A stretch of 64,000 nucleotides of DNA from Leuconostoc lactis KCTC 3528 = DSM 20202. GTDB taxonomy: Bacteria; Bacillota; Bacilli; Lactobacillales; Lactobacillaceae. The stretch spans positions 62,001 to 126,000 of the forward strand of contig NZ_BMWM01000001.1 in NCBI RefSeq assembly GCF_014651235.1, written 5' to 3'. The position numbers were made by a program, and so were the translations under genes. Shown piece by piece: positions 2,020-6,111 of the stretch. The notes beneath the pieces were generated by a model, which was not told the origin of the DNA, did no database searches, and was given only the letters and a program-made list of their open reading frames with translations. Positions within the stretch are counted from its first letter, which is position 1, and the number at the start of each line of letters is the position of its first letter.

Positions 2020-3798
2020 TTAGTCAGCATCAGGAACAATTAAGCCAAGATCATTCAATTGCTTACCGTCCACACGTGTTGGTGCTTCAGTCATCGGTTC
2101 AGTTGCACGTGAATTCTTAGGGAAGGCAATCACTTCACGAATGTTATCTTGTCCCGCAAGTAACATGGCCAAACGATCCAAACCAAGCGCAATACCGCCC
2201 ATTGGTGGGAAACCATATTCCATGCCTTCAAGTAAGAAGCCAAAGGCTTCATGGGCTGCTTCTGGTGTGAAGCCAAGTGCCTTGAGCATCTTTTCTTGTA
2301 TATCCATGCGATGAATACGGATTGACCCTGAACCTAATTCGTACCCATTTAAGACCAAATCGTAACTTTGTGCATGGGCTTGGTGCGGATCTTCACCCTC
2401 ATCAAGATAGTGCAAATCTGCCTCATTTGGCATTGTAAATGGATGGTGCGCGGCAATCCAGCGATCAAATTCTTCAGAGTATTCAAACAATGGCCAATCC
2501 ACGATCCAAGCAAAGGCCCAAGGATTGTCTTGATCAATCAAATCTAAATCTTGCGCTGTTTGACGACGTAGGTAATCTAAGGTTGCTGCGACAACATCCG
2601 CACGGCCAGCACCAAACAACAACAAGTCGCCTTCTTTGGCGCCAGTGGCTGCAAGCAACGCATCTGCATCTGCTTCAGGGAAGAACTTGGCGATTGGGCC
2701 AGAAATACCATCAGCGGTTACCTTTAACCAAGCTAAGCCCTTTGCGCCAAAGCGTTCAATATATTGCGCAAGCTTGTCAATATCTTTACGTGAGTAGTGC
2801 GCCGCACCACCAGGAACGGCAATCGCTTTGACAACTCCACCACCATCTTTGACCGCATTCGCAAAGACACCAAATTCAGAATCCTTGACCGTTTCAGACA
2901 AATCCTTAAGTTCGTAAGGAATACGCAAATCAGGCTTATCCGTCCCAAAACGCGTCATCGCTTCTTCCCAAGTAAGTGTTTGAATTGCATCAGTGTCAAG
3001 ATCATAACCGATGACATCATGCATCATCGTCTTCACCCACTCATTCACTAAGGCCCGAATTTCATCAGCCGACATAAATGATGTTTCTAAGTCCATTTGC
3101 GTAAATTCTGGTTGACGATCACCACGCAAATCTTCATCACGGAAGGCCCGCGCAATTTGGAAATAACGATCAAAGCCAGCGCCCATCAACAATTGCTTAA
3201 ACAATTGCGGTGATTGTGGCAAGGCATAAAATGAACCGGGGAAAATACGTGAAGGCACTAAGTAATCACGTGCGCCTTCTGGTGTTGACTTGGCCAAAAT
3301 TGGCGTTTCAATATTGATGAAATCATTGTCATCCATAAATTTCATCGCGCTTGACATGATCTTTGAGCGAATACGAAGATTCTTTTGCATTTCTGGTCGA
3401 CGTAAGTCCAAATAACGATATTGCAACTTCAATTCTTCGTTAGCGTTCACGCCATCTTCAATATAAAATGGTGGTGTCTTTGATGTAGCTAAGATTTCTG
3501 CCTCTGTAACATCAATTTCCACTTTACCCGAATGAATCTTATTGTTCACTTGGCTCGCTTCACGGTCAATAACTGTCCCTGTCACAGCAATCACGTATTC
3601 ATTGCGCATGGATTCCGCCACGGCCAACGCGGCTGGATGGGTCGCGTTAAATGTGAGTTGCACAATCCCTTCACGATCACGCAAGTCAACGAAAATCAAG
3701 TCACCAAAATCACGGCGCTTTTGTACCCAACCTGATAGTGTCACAGTTTGGCCAAGATACTTTTCATCAATTAAGCCGGCATATGTTGTTCGCTTCAT
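2020..3798 (-). CDS. aspS: Aspartyl-tRNA synthetase
   Basis: Class II synthetase of 592 residues, the usual bacterial length. An N-terminal OB-fold anticodon-binding domain (about 1-105, [19 protein letters not shown]) precedes the catalytic core with RYLDLRR, motif 2 [16 protein letters not shown], the bacterial insertion domain, and motif 3 [15 protein letters not shown] near the C terminus. It charges tRNA-Asp. The ATG overlaps the hisS stop codon (ATGA), and GGAG within the end of hisS gives a well spaced Shine-Dalgarno, so the two are translationally coupled and both fall under the T-box upstream of hisS. No terminator is evident before the yitT-like gene 110 bp downstream. Confidence 0.98.
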
Positions 3799-5105
3799 TG
3801 TTCTTCATCTCCTTCTGCATCAATAATTGTTGGCAAATCTGTATAAAGATCAGCTAATTTCACTGTTTGTTGCTGACCAGTTGCCATATTTTTAATCTTT
3901 GCTACGTGATCCGCTAATTCTTGTTCACCAATTGTGACCACGTACTTGCTTTGGTAGCGATCAGCTGATTTAAATTGGGCTTTCGCTGAGCGCCCCAAAT
4001 AATCACGTTCCGCGACGTAACCAAAACCACGAATGGCTTGCACAATTTGCATGGCTGCCACTTCTGTGTCATCACCAATATTGACAACATAAAAGTCTAG
4101 CCCTTCGGGTTCAACTGGCTTTAAACCTTTGGCCTCAAGAAGACTCACCAGGCGTTCAACGCCAATCCCAAAGCCAACACCAGGCGTTTCCGGCCCACCG
4201 AATTCTGATACAAGGCCAGAATAACGGCCGCCACCAGCAATGGTTGCTGCCCCTTTTAAGGTGTCATCCACCGTCATGATTTCAAAAATGGTATCGTTAT
4301 AATAATCCAAACCACGCACCATTGTCGGATCAACTTCAAATGGAATATCAAGCGCAGTCAACAGTGCTTGGACTTTTTCCCAGTGTGCTTTTGCATCATC
4401 AGAAAGATAATCCAAAATTACTGGTGCATCCGCAACAAAGACTTGATCACGGGGATCTTTAGAATCCAAGACACGCAACGGATTCTTTTCTAAACGCGCT
4501 TGTGAATCAGCGGATAGTTCATCAAAGTGGGGCTTCAAATAATCAATCAAAGCCTGACGATAAGCGTCACGGGTTGCCTTATCTCCTAAGGAATTAATGG
4601 CAACCTTCAAGTTATCCAAGCCAAAGGTTTGGAAAAAATTGATCAGCATCGCAATGATTTCAACATCAAGCGCTGGTGATGATGAGCCAAAAGCCTCTGC
4701 GCCAATTTGGTGGAATTGACGGAAACGACCAGCTTGTGGGCGTTCATAACGAAACATTGGGCCAATGTAAAAGGCTTTATACGGCTTGTCAAATTCTGGG
4801 CCATAAAGCTTATTTTCCACAAAGGCACGCACGATGCCGGCTGTGCCTTCCGGCCGCAAGACCACATGACGATCACCCTTATCGTGGAAGTCATACATTT
4901 CTTTCGTCACCACATCAGAAGTATCCCCTGCTGAACGTGAAAAGACTTCAAAGTTTTCAAAAAGTGGTGTCCGCACCTCTTTAAAATTGTAATCGCCAAA
5001 CAAAACGCGGGCTAGATTTTCAACATATTGCCATTGGGCCGTTTGTTCTGGTAACAAATCAGCTGTGCCTTTAGGGCGTTGGAAAGTTGCTTTTGCCATT
5101 TTCAT
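3795..5105 (-). CDS. hisS: Histidyl-tRNA synthetase
   Basis: Class II synthetase of 436 residues. It shows the N-terminal [14 protein letters not shown], motif 2 [19 protein letters not shown] (around residue 117), the histidine-specific [13 protein letters not shown] and GGGRYSGL, motif 3 GFGIGVERL, and a C-terminal anticodon domain. First gene of the hisS-aspS pair, expressed from a T-box leader. Two ATGs are possible (5105 and 5099, MKMAKATF); a stop codon directly precedes the first. The only strong Shine-Dalgarno (AAAGGAG, 5151-5145) is 39 nt away, but a 10-bp hairpin between them would shorten the effective spacing to 9 nt for the first ATG, which is why I keep it. Confidence 0.97.
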
Positions 5106-5151
5106 TCACACGTTGTGCGACGCTTAAATTGTCGACAACGCCTACTCCTTT
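5106..5151 (-). promoter_or_regulatory. Hairpin-spaced ribosome binding site of hisS
   Basis: On the minus strand AAAGGAG (5151-5145) is followed after 4 nt by CGTTGTCGAC (5140-5131), a 9-nt loop, and GTCGCACAACG (5121-5111). These pair over 10 bp with a single bulged C at 5117. The ATG begins 5 nt after the stem at 5105. If the stem forms, Shine-Dalgarno and start are 9 nt apart; if not, 39 nt. No alternative start in the hisS frame lies between, because TGA directly precedes the ATG. Confidence 0.65.
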
Positions 5152-5164
5152 TATTTTTTACATT

Positions 5165-5397
5165 AAACCTCAAAAGCGCCCTTAACGACTAATCGTTAAG
5201 GGCGCTTTTGCACGGTACCACCTTAAATATTGACAGTACTGACTGTCACTTTGACTGCTTATCGCGCAACCACGCACTGTCTTGAACAACAGCGACCTCC
5301 AAGGTGTCACCAATCACGTCATTGTTTTGCTTACATCACCCGCAAAATTTCTAAAGGTCCAAACTGTGATTTTTCCAATTCATCGGCTTTAATATAT
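5165..5397 (-). ncRNA. T-box leader (tRNA-sensing riboswitch) of hisS-aspS
   Basis: The minus strand contains the T-box core GGTGGTACCGTGC (5222-5210), matching the consensus GGUGGNACCGCG that pairs with the acceptor end of uncharged tRNA. It is followed immediately by a terminator-type hairpin with 15-bp arms (5172-5209, arm GCGCCCTTAACGA). The leader starts just after the promoter at 5404-5432 and is about 290 nt long in total, normal for a Stem I-III T-box. The regulated genes suggest a His specifier; a CAC triplet followed by A lies at 5368-5366, but I could not fold Stem I with confidence, so the codon is tentative. Confidence 0.88.
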
Positions 5398-5403
5398 AAC
5401 CTA

Positions 5404-5432
5404 ATCATATCGGGTCACTGCTTTAAAGTCAA
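5404..5432 (-). promoter_or_regulatory. Promoter of the hisS T-box transcript
   Basis: Minus strand -35 TTGACT (5432-5427), 17-bp spacer, -10 TATGAT (5409-5404). It begins just behind the pgmB stop codon. A 7-bp inverted repeat (ACTGCTT/AAGCAGT) overlaps the -35 but has no T-run, so it is not a good terminator for the maltose operon. Confidence 0.75.
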
Positions 5433-5436
5433 GCAG

Positions 5437-6111
5437 TTATTTATCCATTAAAGCCGCAATGTTTTCAAGCGTCACATCTGCAGTTGTTGCAAAATTCAAG
5501 TCTGCTGCTGACAACACATTTGGATCACCAATACCCAATGATATTGCGCCAGCTGCGTTAATCGCTTCAATACCAGAAGTTGAATCTTCTAAGCCAATCG
5601 TTTGTTCTGGTGGCAATGATAAAATTTCAGCCGCCCGCACAAAGATTTCTGGATCAGGCTTACCCTTAGCAAGCGTCGCTGGATCAACAATCCCAACAAA
5701 ATCATCTATCAAACCGAGGTGTTCAAGAATAAGTGGCGCATTCTTAGATGCTGAAGCAATGGCGAGTTGATACCCTGCTGCTTTAGCATTGGTAATGAAG
5801 GCCTTCATCCCCGGTAAAATATCAGCTTCTGTCAGTGTAGCAATCAATGTTTGATAGTTGCGGTTCTTTTCATCAGCCAAAACTGCTTTTTCCGCGTCAC
5901 TATAAGCATCGCCCTGCCCACTTGCCTCTAAAATCAGTTGGAGAGAATCCATCCGGCTAATCCCCTTGAGGCCTTCAGCCAATTCATCTGTCCATGGTGT
6001 GCCAACTTTGTCAGCGACCTGTCGCCAAGCTTGACCATGGAACTTCGCCGTATCAGCGATCACACCATCTAGGTCAAAGAGGAAGCCCTTTATTTCTGAA
6101 AAATTAGTCAT
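5437..6111 (-). CDS. pgmB: Beta-phosphoglucomutase
   Basis: HAD-superfamily protein of 224 residues, the size of Lactococcus PgmB. The nucleophile/acid-base pair is in FDLDGVIADT (Asp10 and Asp12 region), with IASASKN carrying the Ser/Lys motif and GLEDSTSGIEA the acidic metal motif; the cap domain lies at about 15-90. It turns beta-glucose-1-phosphate, the product of maltose phosphorylase, into glucose-6-phosphate. Last gene of the maltose operon; it starts 12 bp after galM with a good AAAGGAG at 7-nt spacing. Confidence 0.95.
   Translation of the reverse strand: MTNFSEIKGFLFDLDGVIADTAKFHGQAWRQVADKVGTPWTDELAEGLKGISRMDSLQLILEASGQGDAYSDAEKAVLADEKNRNYQTLIATLTEADILPGMKAFITNAKAAGYQLAIASASKNAPLILEHLGLIDDFVGIVDPATLAKGKPDPEIFVRAAEILSLPPEQTIGLEDSTSGIEAINAAGAISLGIGDPNVLSAADLNFATTADVTLENIAALMDK

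Follow-up and report, generated by a model that had tools for sequence, protein, structure and literature searches.

The window, the whole stretch of 64,000 nucleotides of Leuconostoc lactis KCTC 3528 = DSM 20202 analysed here, carries on its minus strand hisS, the gene for histidine–tRNA ligase, behind a T-box leader and its terminator. The Shine–Dalgarno (SD) sequence of hisS is separated from the start codon by a hairpin. The features are as follows, in the direction of transcription.

5195–5392, minus strand: T-box leader of hisS, with the T-box motif GGTGGTACC at 5222–5214 (match to RF00230)
5171–5210, minus strand: intrinsic terminator of the T-box, 18-bp stem (sequence and fold)
5145–5151, minus strand: Shine–Dalgarno AAAGGAG of hisS (sequence; without nearer anti-SD complement)
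5111–5140, minus strand: probable structured spacer of hisS (sequence, fold and covariation in relatives)
5103–5105, minus strand: first hisS ATG, the start named in the earlier note, found in the window and genome G011 only (leader comparison)
5097–5099, minus strand: likely hisS start codon, opening the conserved MAKxxFQRP start (homology)
3795–5099, minus strand: hisS, histidine–tRNA ligase (TIGR00442, 503 bits)

The RF00230 model matches 5392–5195 over its full length with 65.6 bits (E = 4.2e-14), below the Rfam gathering score of 93, and both the motif GGTGGTACC and the 18-bp terminator stem lie upstream of this aminoacyl-tRNA synthetase gene. In the spacer, 5140–5131 pairs with 5121–5111 to form a stem of 10 bp with one bulged C (C5117) and a loop of 9 nt (5130–5122). 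RNAfold of the leader returns the same stem with additional outer pairs, in agreement with the earlier description of this stem. AAAGGAG at 5151–5145 lies 39 nt from the ATG at 5105, exactly as had been claimed, and 4 + 5 = 9 nt are left once the stem is removed, as had also been claimed. However, the start codon itself had probably been placed wrongly. ATG 5105 occurs in the window and in its nearest relative, G011, only, and was discarded for not being conserved; the second ATG, at 5099, is conserved among the hisS relatives and is the likelier start on sequence grounds. Its raw SD spacing is 45 nt, which becomes 15 nt without the 10-bp stem and 7 nt in the MFE fold. No anti-SD complement of at least 5 nt is found at 3–13 nt from ATG 5099, so that the absence of a closer SD, also part of the earlier description, holds for this start as well. 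Folded alone, the window spacer is matched by 0 of 500 shuffles; in an 86-nt context the hairpin is unremarkable (z = −1.45; 19 of 200 shuffles equally good), and it is the comparative evidence that decides the matter.

An mRNA 5′ end downstream of the SD would speak against a role for the SD and hairpin, and a consensus promoter scan of 5050–5500 gave no promoter-like site downstream of 5391 on the hisS strand; the best site is at 5432–5404. The nearest named HisS to that of the window is from L. holzapfelii (91%). At its 3′ end, hisS overlaps the next ORF (3798–2020, minus strand), which we take to resemble aspS, by 4 nt (3795–3798). Because of this overlap, the hisS ribosome-binding site may affect that ORF also.

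To place the window in its clade, we compared 37 hisS leaders, with start codons assigned by homology: 19 from Leuconostoc (the window included), one from L. fallax, two from genus g39, two from g7 and 13 from g2. In the wider sample, hisS was found in 393 of the 397 family genomes drawn, and leaders were used from every drawn genome of g8 (1), g39 (2), g7 (2), g2 (13), g18 (25) and g19 (5), plus some others. The leaders of 12 Leuconostoc loci and of the g8 locus are identical to those of named loci, for example L. citreum, L. gelidum, L. carnosum and L. pseudomesenteroides; g8 is L. fallax by this identity. We guess that g2, g7 and g39 are Fructobacillus, Convivina and kin, and that g18 and g19 are Weissella and kin.

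All 37 leaders have a strong SD, 24–106 nt from the ATG, and in all 37 the spacing falls to 7–18 nt after removal of the nucleotides enclosed by the MFE fold. The spacer folds better than 95% of dinucleotide shuffles (P < 0.05) in 35 of the 37, with a mean z of −3.6, and segments of equal length from the coding sequence after the ATG are significant in 0 of 37. The two spacers without significance, L012 (P = 0.21) and L021 (P = 0.17), are both long. They belong, with L016 and L020, to four genomes that we label mesenteroides-like, in which the SD is 94–106 nt away and the hairpin is long and irregular. Its closing stem, for example CGTTTTTAGT/ACTAAAAACG in L020, encloses an insert of 80–92 nt and leaves 14–16 nt.

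The far SD and the hairpin go together with the absence of a near SD. A match to the anti-SD of at least 5 nt, located 3–13 nt from the ATG, occurs in 4 of the 37 leaders of the clade and in 29 of the 51 from outside it (55 loci, four skipped); for at least 4 nt the counts are 10 of 37 and 45 of 51. Thus the window and 33 of the 37 leaders lack a competing near SD of at least 5 nt, the exceptions being L015, L048, L049 and L101. The two g39 leaders, L048 and L049, form a 6-bp hairpin of the GNRA type (loop GCGA or GTGA), with GAGGTG in the loop and 3′ arm, about 11 nt away; this GAGGTG could itself act as an SD, and two SDs may compete there. The six outside leaders with less than 4 nt of complement all belong to g29, and therefore a near SD of 4 nt or longer is present in each of the 30 leaders of g18 and g19; they leave no room for such a hairpin. 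A comparison of Leuconostoc and Weissella leaders, proposed in the earlier note as a check, is thus divided: the stem is conserved in Leuconostoc, whereas g18 and g19, Weissella by our guess, have a near SD. In g29 (L104 and L106–L110), hisS has neither a T-box motif within 330 nt nor a recognisable near SD.

For covariation, 14 short Leuconostoc spacers of the 19 were aligned with MAFFT, leaving out the four long-spacer genomes and L019, whose spacer equals that of L018. Both arms are in register by eye in 13 of the 14; the exception, L022, was retained. Standard pairs fill 80.0% of the 140 cells (10 pairs in 14 leaders), compared with 63.8% in shuffles. Double changes occur in nine of the 10 pairs (6.5 in shuffles; 11 of 500 reach this), the covariation score is 0.551 (0.268 in shuffles; 0 of 500), and further pair types number 21 (18.2 in shuffles; 56 of 500). 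Compensatory changes, which the earlier note had suggested looking for in this stem, are therefore found in close relatives, with 32 double-changed cells against 12.9 in shuffles (0 of 500) and 5–9 in slid control structures. RNAalifold recovers seven of the 10 pairs independently. Parsimony on the hisS nucleotide tree gives 13 double changes from one pair to another, compared with 3–4 in six slid controls; it also gives 17 losses of pairing and eight regains, and 12 of the losses affect the two pairs at the outer end of the stem or the three nearest the loop. Between species, the letters of the loop and most of those in the stem differ.

The structured spacer is not special to hisS, and it recurs in leuS, serC, aroC and other genes of Leuconostoc. 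We compared the leaders of leuS, aroC, serC and the gene P0005, each from 18 of the 19 Leuconostoc genomes; L184 was left out for serC (the match start is off the gene start), as were the broken or partial loci of genome G004 for leuS, aroC and P0005, and L216 was likewise left out before counting. In leuS, the SD is far in 12 of 18 leaders, 11 of which have a significant hairpin, and the other six have an SD at 7–8 nt without a hairpin. The leuS helix, with three of 11 rows set aside for gaps in the helix and L165 kept out of the alignment, is paired in 96.9% of 64 cells over eight pairs. Its paired cells and its double-changed cells are each reached by 0 of 500 shuffles, and six of the eight pairs are double-changed (11 of 500). 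A T-box motif and a terminator lie upstream of leuS. For example, L155, the leuS leader at C1:155934 on the minus strand, has the T-box motif, the terminator and a perfect 11-bp hairpin between GGAGG and the ATG. Outside Leuconostoc, a far SD was found in 0 of 18 leuS leaders with an ATG (19 genomes, including all of g8, g7 and g39 and eight of g2; the nineteenth has no ATG at the expected place). Twelve of these 18 have an ordinary near SD, and six have no SD within 80 nt by the patterns used.

The other three genes vary in how regularly the hairpin accompanies a far SD. It is significant in 10 of 11 far-SD leaders in aroC (the seven others have no SD by patterns), again in 10 of 11 in serC (the other seven have a near SD or none), and in only 10 of 17 in P0005 (one leader has no SD). 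Covariation in aroC is not significant (83 of 500 shuffles, with four of 10 rows set aside). No T-box motif was found in the 450 nt upstream of serC, aroC or P0005, and an Rfam scan of four leaders gave no match, even for leuS despite its T-box motif, and thus carries no weight either way.

We then searched ORFs for leaders in which a strong SD lies farther away than usual, a near SD is lacking and the spacer folds significantly; start codons were guessed among the ATGs of each ORF. On the Leuconostoc contig C1 (242 kb, 218 ORFs), where 36 starts were tested and 0.7 matches would be expected, seven genes were found: leuS, hisS, aroC, serC, a flavodoxin gene, and P0005 and P0006, the last two without an NCBIfam match. 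The criteria were set after two earlier versions on C1 (C1:192942 and C1:158687, present in an earlier version, are absent from the final one), and C1 is therefore no independent test. The survey finds 4 of 215 ORFs in the Leuconostoc genome G005 and 3 of 222 in G009, hisS among them, so that the share is about 1–3% in three of the four Leuconostoc genomes sampled; the fourth, G018, has 1 of 233. The g2 genome G115 has 2 of 194, with hisS among them, and was kept off both sides of the comparison. As controls, g18 genome G348 has 0 of 228, g37 genome G054 1 of 220 and E. coli K-12 1 of 196. We disbelieve three matches but retained them in the counts: that of E. coli (the ATG lies 51 nt within pqiA), that of G054 (an A/T-rich, terminator-like hairpin) and that of G018 (a fold that leaves no unpaired base). 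Leuconostoc thus has 15 of 888 and the controls 2 of 644 (Fisher P = 0.012), compared with shuffle expectations of 2.5 and 1.7, respectively. Without C1, the comparison between genera is 8 of 670 and 2 of 644 (Fisher P = 0.11), and shuffles predict 1.8 where eight are found (Poisson P = 0.0005). Leuconostoc therefore still exceeds chance, and its surplus relative to other genera is no more than suggestive. The earlier note regarded such a spacer as rare in chromosomal genes, which does not seem to hold in Leuconostoc, where several genes have it.

Three other explanations of the hisS hairpin have to be weighed. It could be an incidental inverted repeat that arose by chance, through mutational bias or from a mobile palindrome, with the distant SD unused by hisS. 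Ordinary mutation does yield palindromes, and the single hairpin of the window is unremarkable in its 86-nt context; but the contrast between 35 of 37 spacers and 0 of 37 coding segments, together with double changes in excess of shuffles, makes chance or a mobile palindrome very unlikely. Moreover, leuS has the hairpin where its SD is far and ordinary spacing where it is near, and the hairpins of different genes have no letters in common by eye, contrary to a mobile palindrome. A different possibility, which we hold to be quite improbable, is that the SD belongs to a short upstream ORF (TTG TCG ACA ATT TAA in the window) and that translation of hisS depends on coupling or reinitiation. An ATG, GTG or TTG does lie 3–11 nt after GGAG in 18 of the 37 leaders, in Leuconostoc often a TTG at 6 nt, and in 10 of 37 the frame stops between −30 and +6 nt from the hisS ATG. 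However, such a start codon is absent from 19 of 37, including L. fallax, both g7 leaders and 11 of the 13 g2 leaders, and the frames, lengths and stops of the upstream ORFs disagree between leaders while hairpin pairing is conserved instead. Only four of 37 have a His codon in this frame within the first 14 codons. The leaders thus share neither a start codon at SD distance nor a stop near the main AUG.

The hairpin may also have a regulatory role: HisRS or another protein could bind it, or it could be a switch that responds to the T-box state or to temperature and permits translation in the folded form only. We consider this unlikely, although a T-box precedes the hairpin in hisS and a T-box motif with terminator precedes it in leuS, and although a split, structured ribosome-binding site is described for E. 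coli thrS, also an aminoacyl-tRNA synthetase gene (PMC3936740). One lead comes from predicted folds of the read-through RNA. In the window, the freed 3′ arm of the terminator (CUUUU; 5171–5187) is predicted to be able to pair with the SD (AAAAGG; 5145–5151), and over the 37 read-through fragments the SD is predicted to be partly paired, with a mean unpaired probability of 0.34 at 30 °C. This partial pairing is the sole possible lead towards regulatory use, but pairing between a U-run and a purine-rich SD is generic, and the lead may be no more than that. In the same fragments the predicted probability of the spacer stem exceeds 0.5 in 31, 33 and 34 of the 37 leaders at 20, 30 and 37 °C, respectively (the four below 0.5 at 30 °C are L012, L016, L083 and L084), and a T-box-linked or temperature switch was discarded as weak. 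A loss of the stem at low temperature in one shortened window fragment was due to the cut point of the fragment, and was gone when the fragment began after the antiterminator. A protein site is also difficult to reconcile with a loop and stem whose letters mostly vary between species. The earlier note suggested that the stem could add a further tier of control to that of the T-box; this finds no support, as serC, aroC and P0005 share the device without a T-box motif in 450 nt, and nothing indicates that the stem switches.

The hisS leader is thus very probably a structured spacer, or split ribosome-binding site, in which the hairpin sets the distance between SD and AUG; the far SD with its hairpin in 37 of 37 leaders and the compensatory changes bear out this reading, which the earlier note had already favoured. 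The 30S subunit would bind the strong distant SD, and the hairpin would stay folded and be looped out or accommodated by the ribosome, so that the start codon would come to lie 7–18 nt from the SD instead of 24–106 nt. Initiation would then occur with the hairpin folded, and opening the stem would be expected to lower translation. Selection would act on the pairing and the distance and not on the letters, and thus the stem could drift by compensatory changes and change in length. Such selection would account for the rapid turnover of the stem, for its changes in length, and for leuS and serC having the device in some genomes and lacking it in others. The hisS device presumably arose before the split of Leuconostoc and the four neighbouring genera, whereas that of leuS seems to have arisen within Leuconostoc.

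An SD normally lies about 5–9 nt from its start codon, a rule on which gene finders and calculators of ribosome-binding sites rely. In the present case an aminoacyl-tRNA synthetase gene departs from that rule across a group of bacterial genera, and folding of the RNA seems to restore the spacing; naturally occurring compensatory changes are the evidence for this repair. In E. coli thrS, the hairpin lies upstream of the SD, unlike the hisS hairpin between SD and AUG, and the gene is under autogenous control by ThrRS. The likeness lies in a synthetase gene with a structured ribosome-binding region, and PMC3936740 describes the long thrS hairpin as accommodated by the ribosome unopened. Compared with T-box leaders (RF00230), the hisS spacer hairpin is 3′ of the terminator and outside the T-box model.

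The closest known systems are genes 38 and 25 of phage T4. In both, according to PMC3014915, a structure between a distant SD and the AUG restores the spacing, from 22 to 5 nt and from 27 to 11 nt, and the gene 25 structure is conserved among close T-even phages. The earlier note had named gene 38, and in that paper the same mechanism is reported for both genes. The shared feature with Leuconostoc hisS is an SD too distant by itself and an intervening structure that restores, or in hisS would restore, the spacing; T4 has mutational evidence, with DMS probing for gene 25, and the evidence in Leuconostoc is comparative. Unlike in T4, the device lies in a bacterial chromosome, in a synthetase gene behind a T-box, with raw spacing up to 106 nt, fast turnover of the stem and several unrelated genes that carry it. 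It is best read as a known mechanism that would here operate in a bacterial chromosome. Among the matches listed, no open-access paper recognisably describes structured spacers for Leuconostoc or as a device that recurs in a bacterial chromosome, which is weak evidence of novelty. An expression system for L. citreum (PMC5995908) would be of use for tests.

A broader reading, which we put forward tentatively and with slightly less than even confidence, is that Leuconostoc has a standing, recurrently gained mode of initiation, in which a far SD is combined with a fast-turning hairpin. Once a hairpin is in the spacer, opening it would mean lost translation, and the pairing would thus be locked while the letters drift, as in a ratchet of constructive neutral evolution. 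The hisS leaders are a clean case of RNA structure retained despite near-total sequence turnover, and the genera offer ready-made species pairs for studying how the ribosome accommodates folded spacers. In leuS, the near-SD state and the far-SD-plus-hairpin state of one gene occur within one genus, and if the broader reading is true the ratchet would be visible in sequence.
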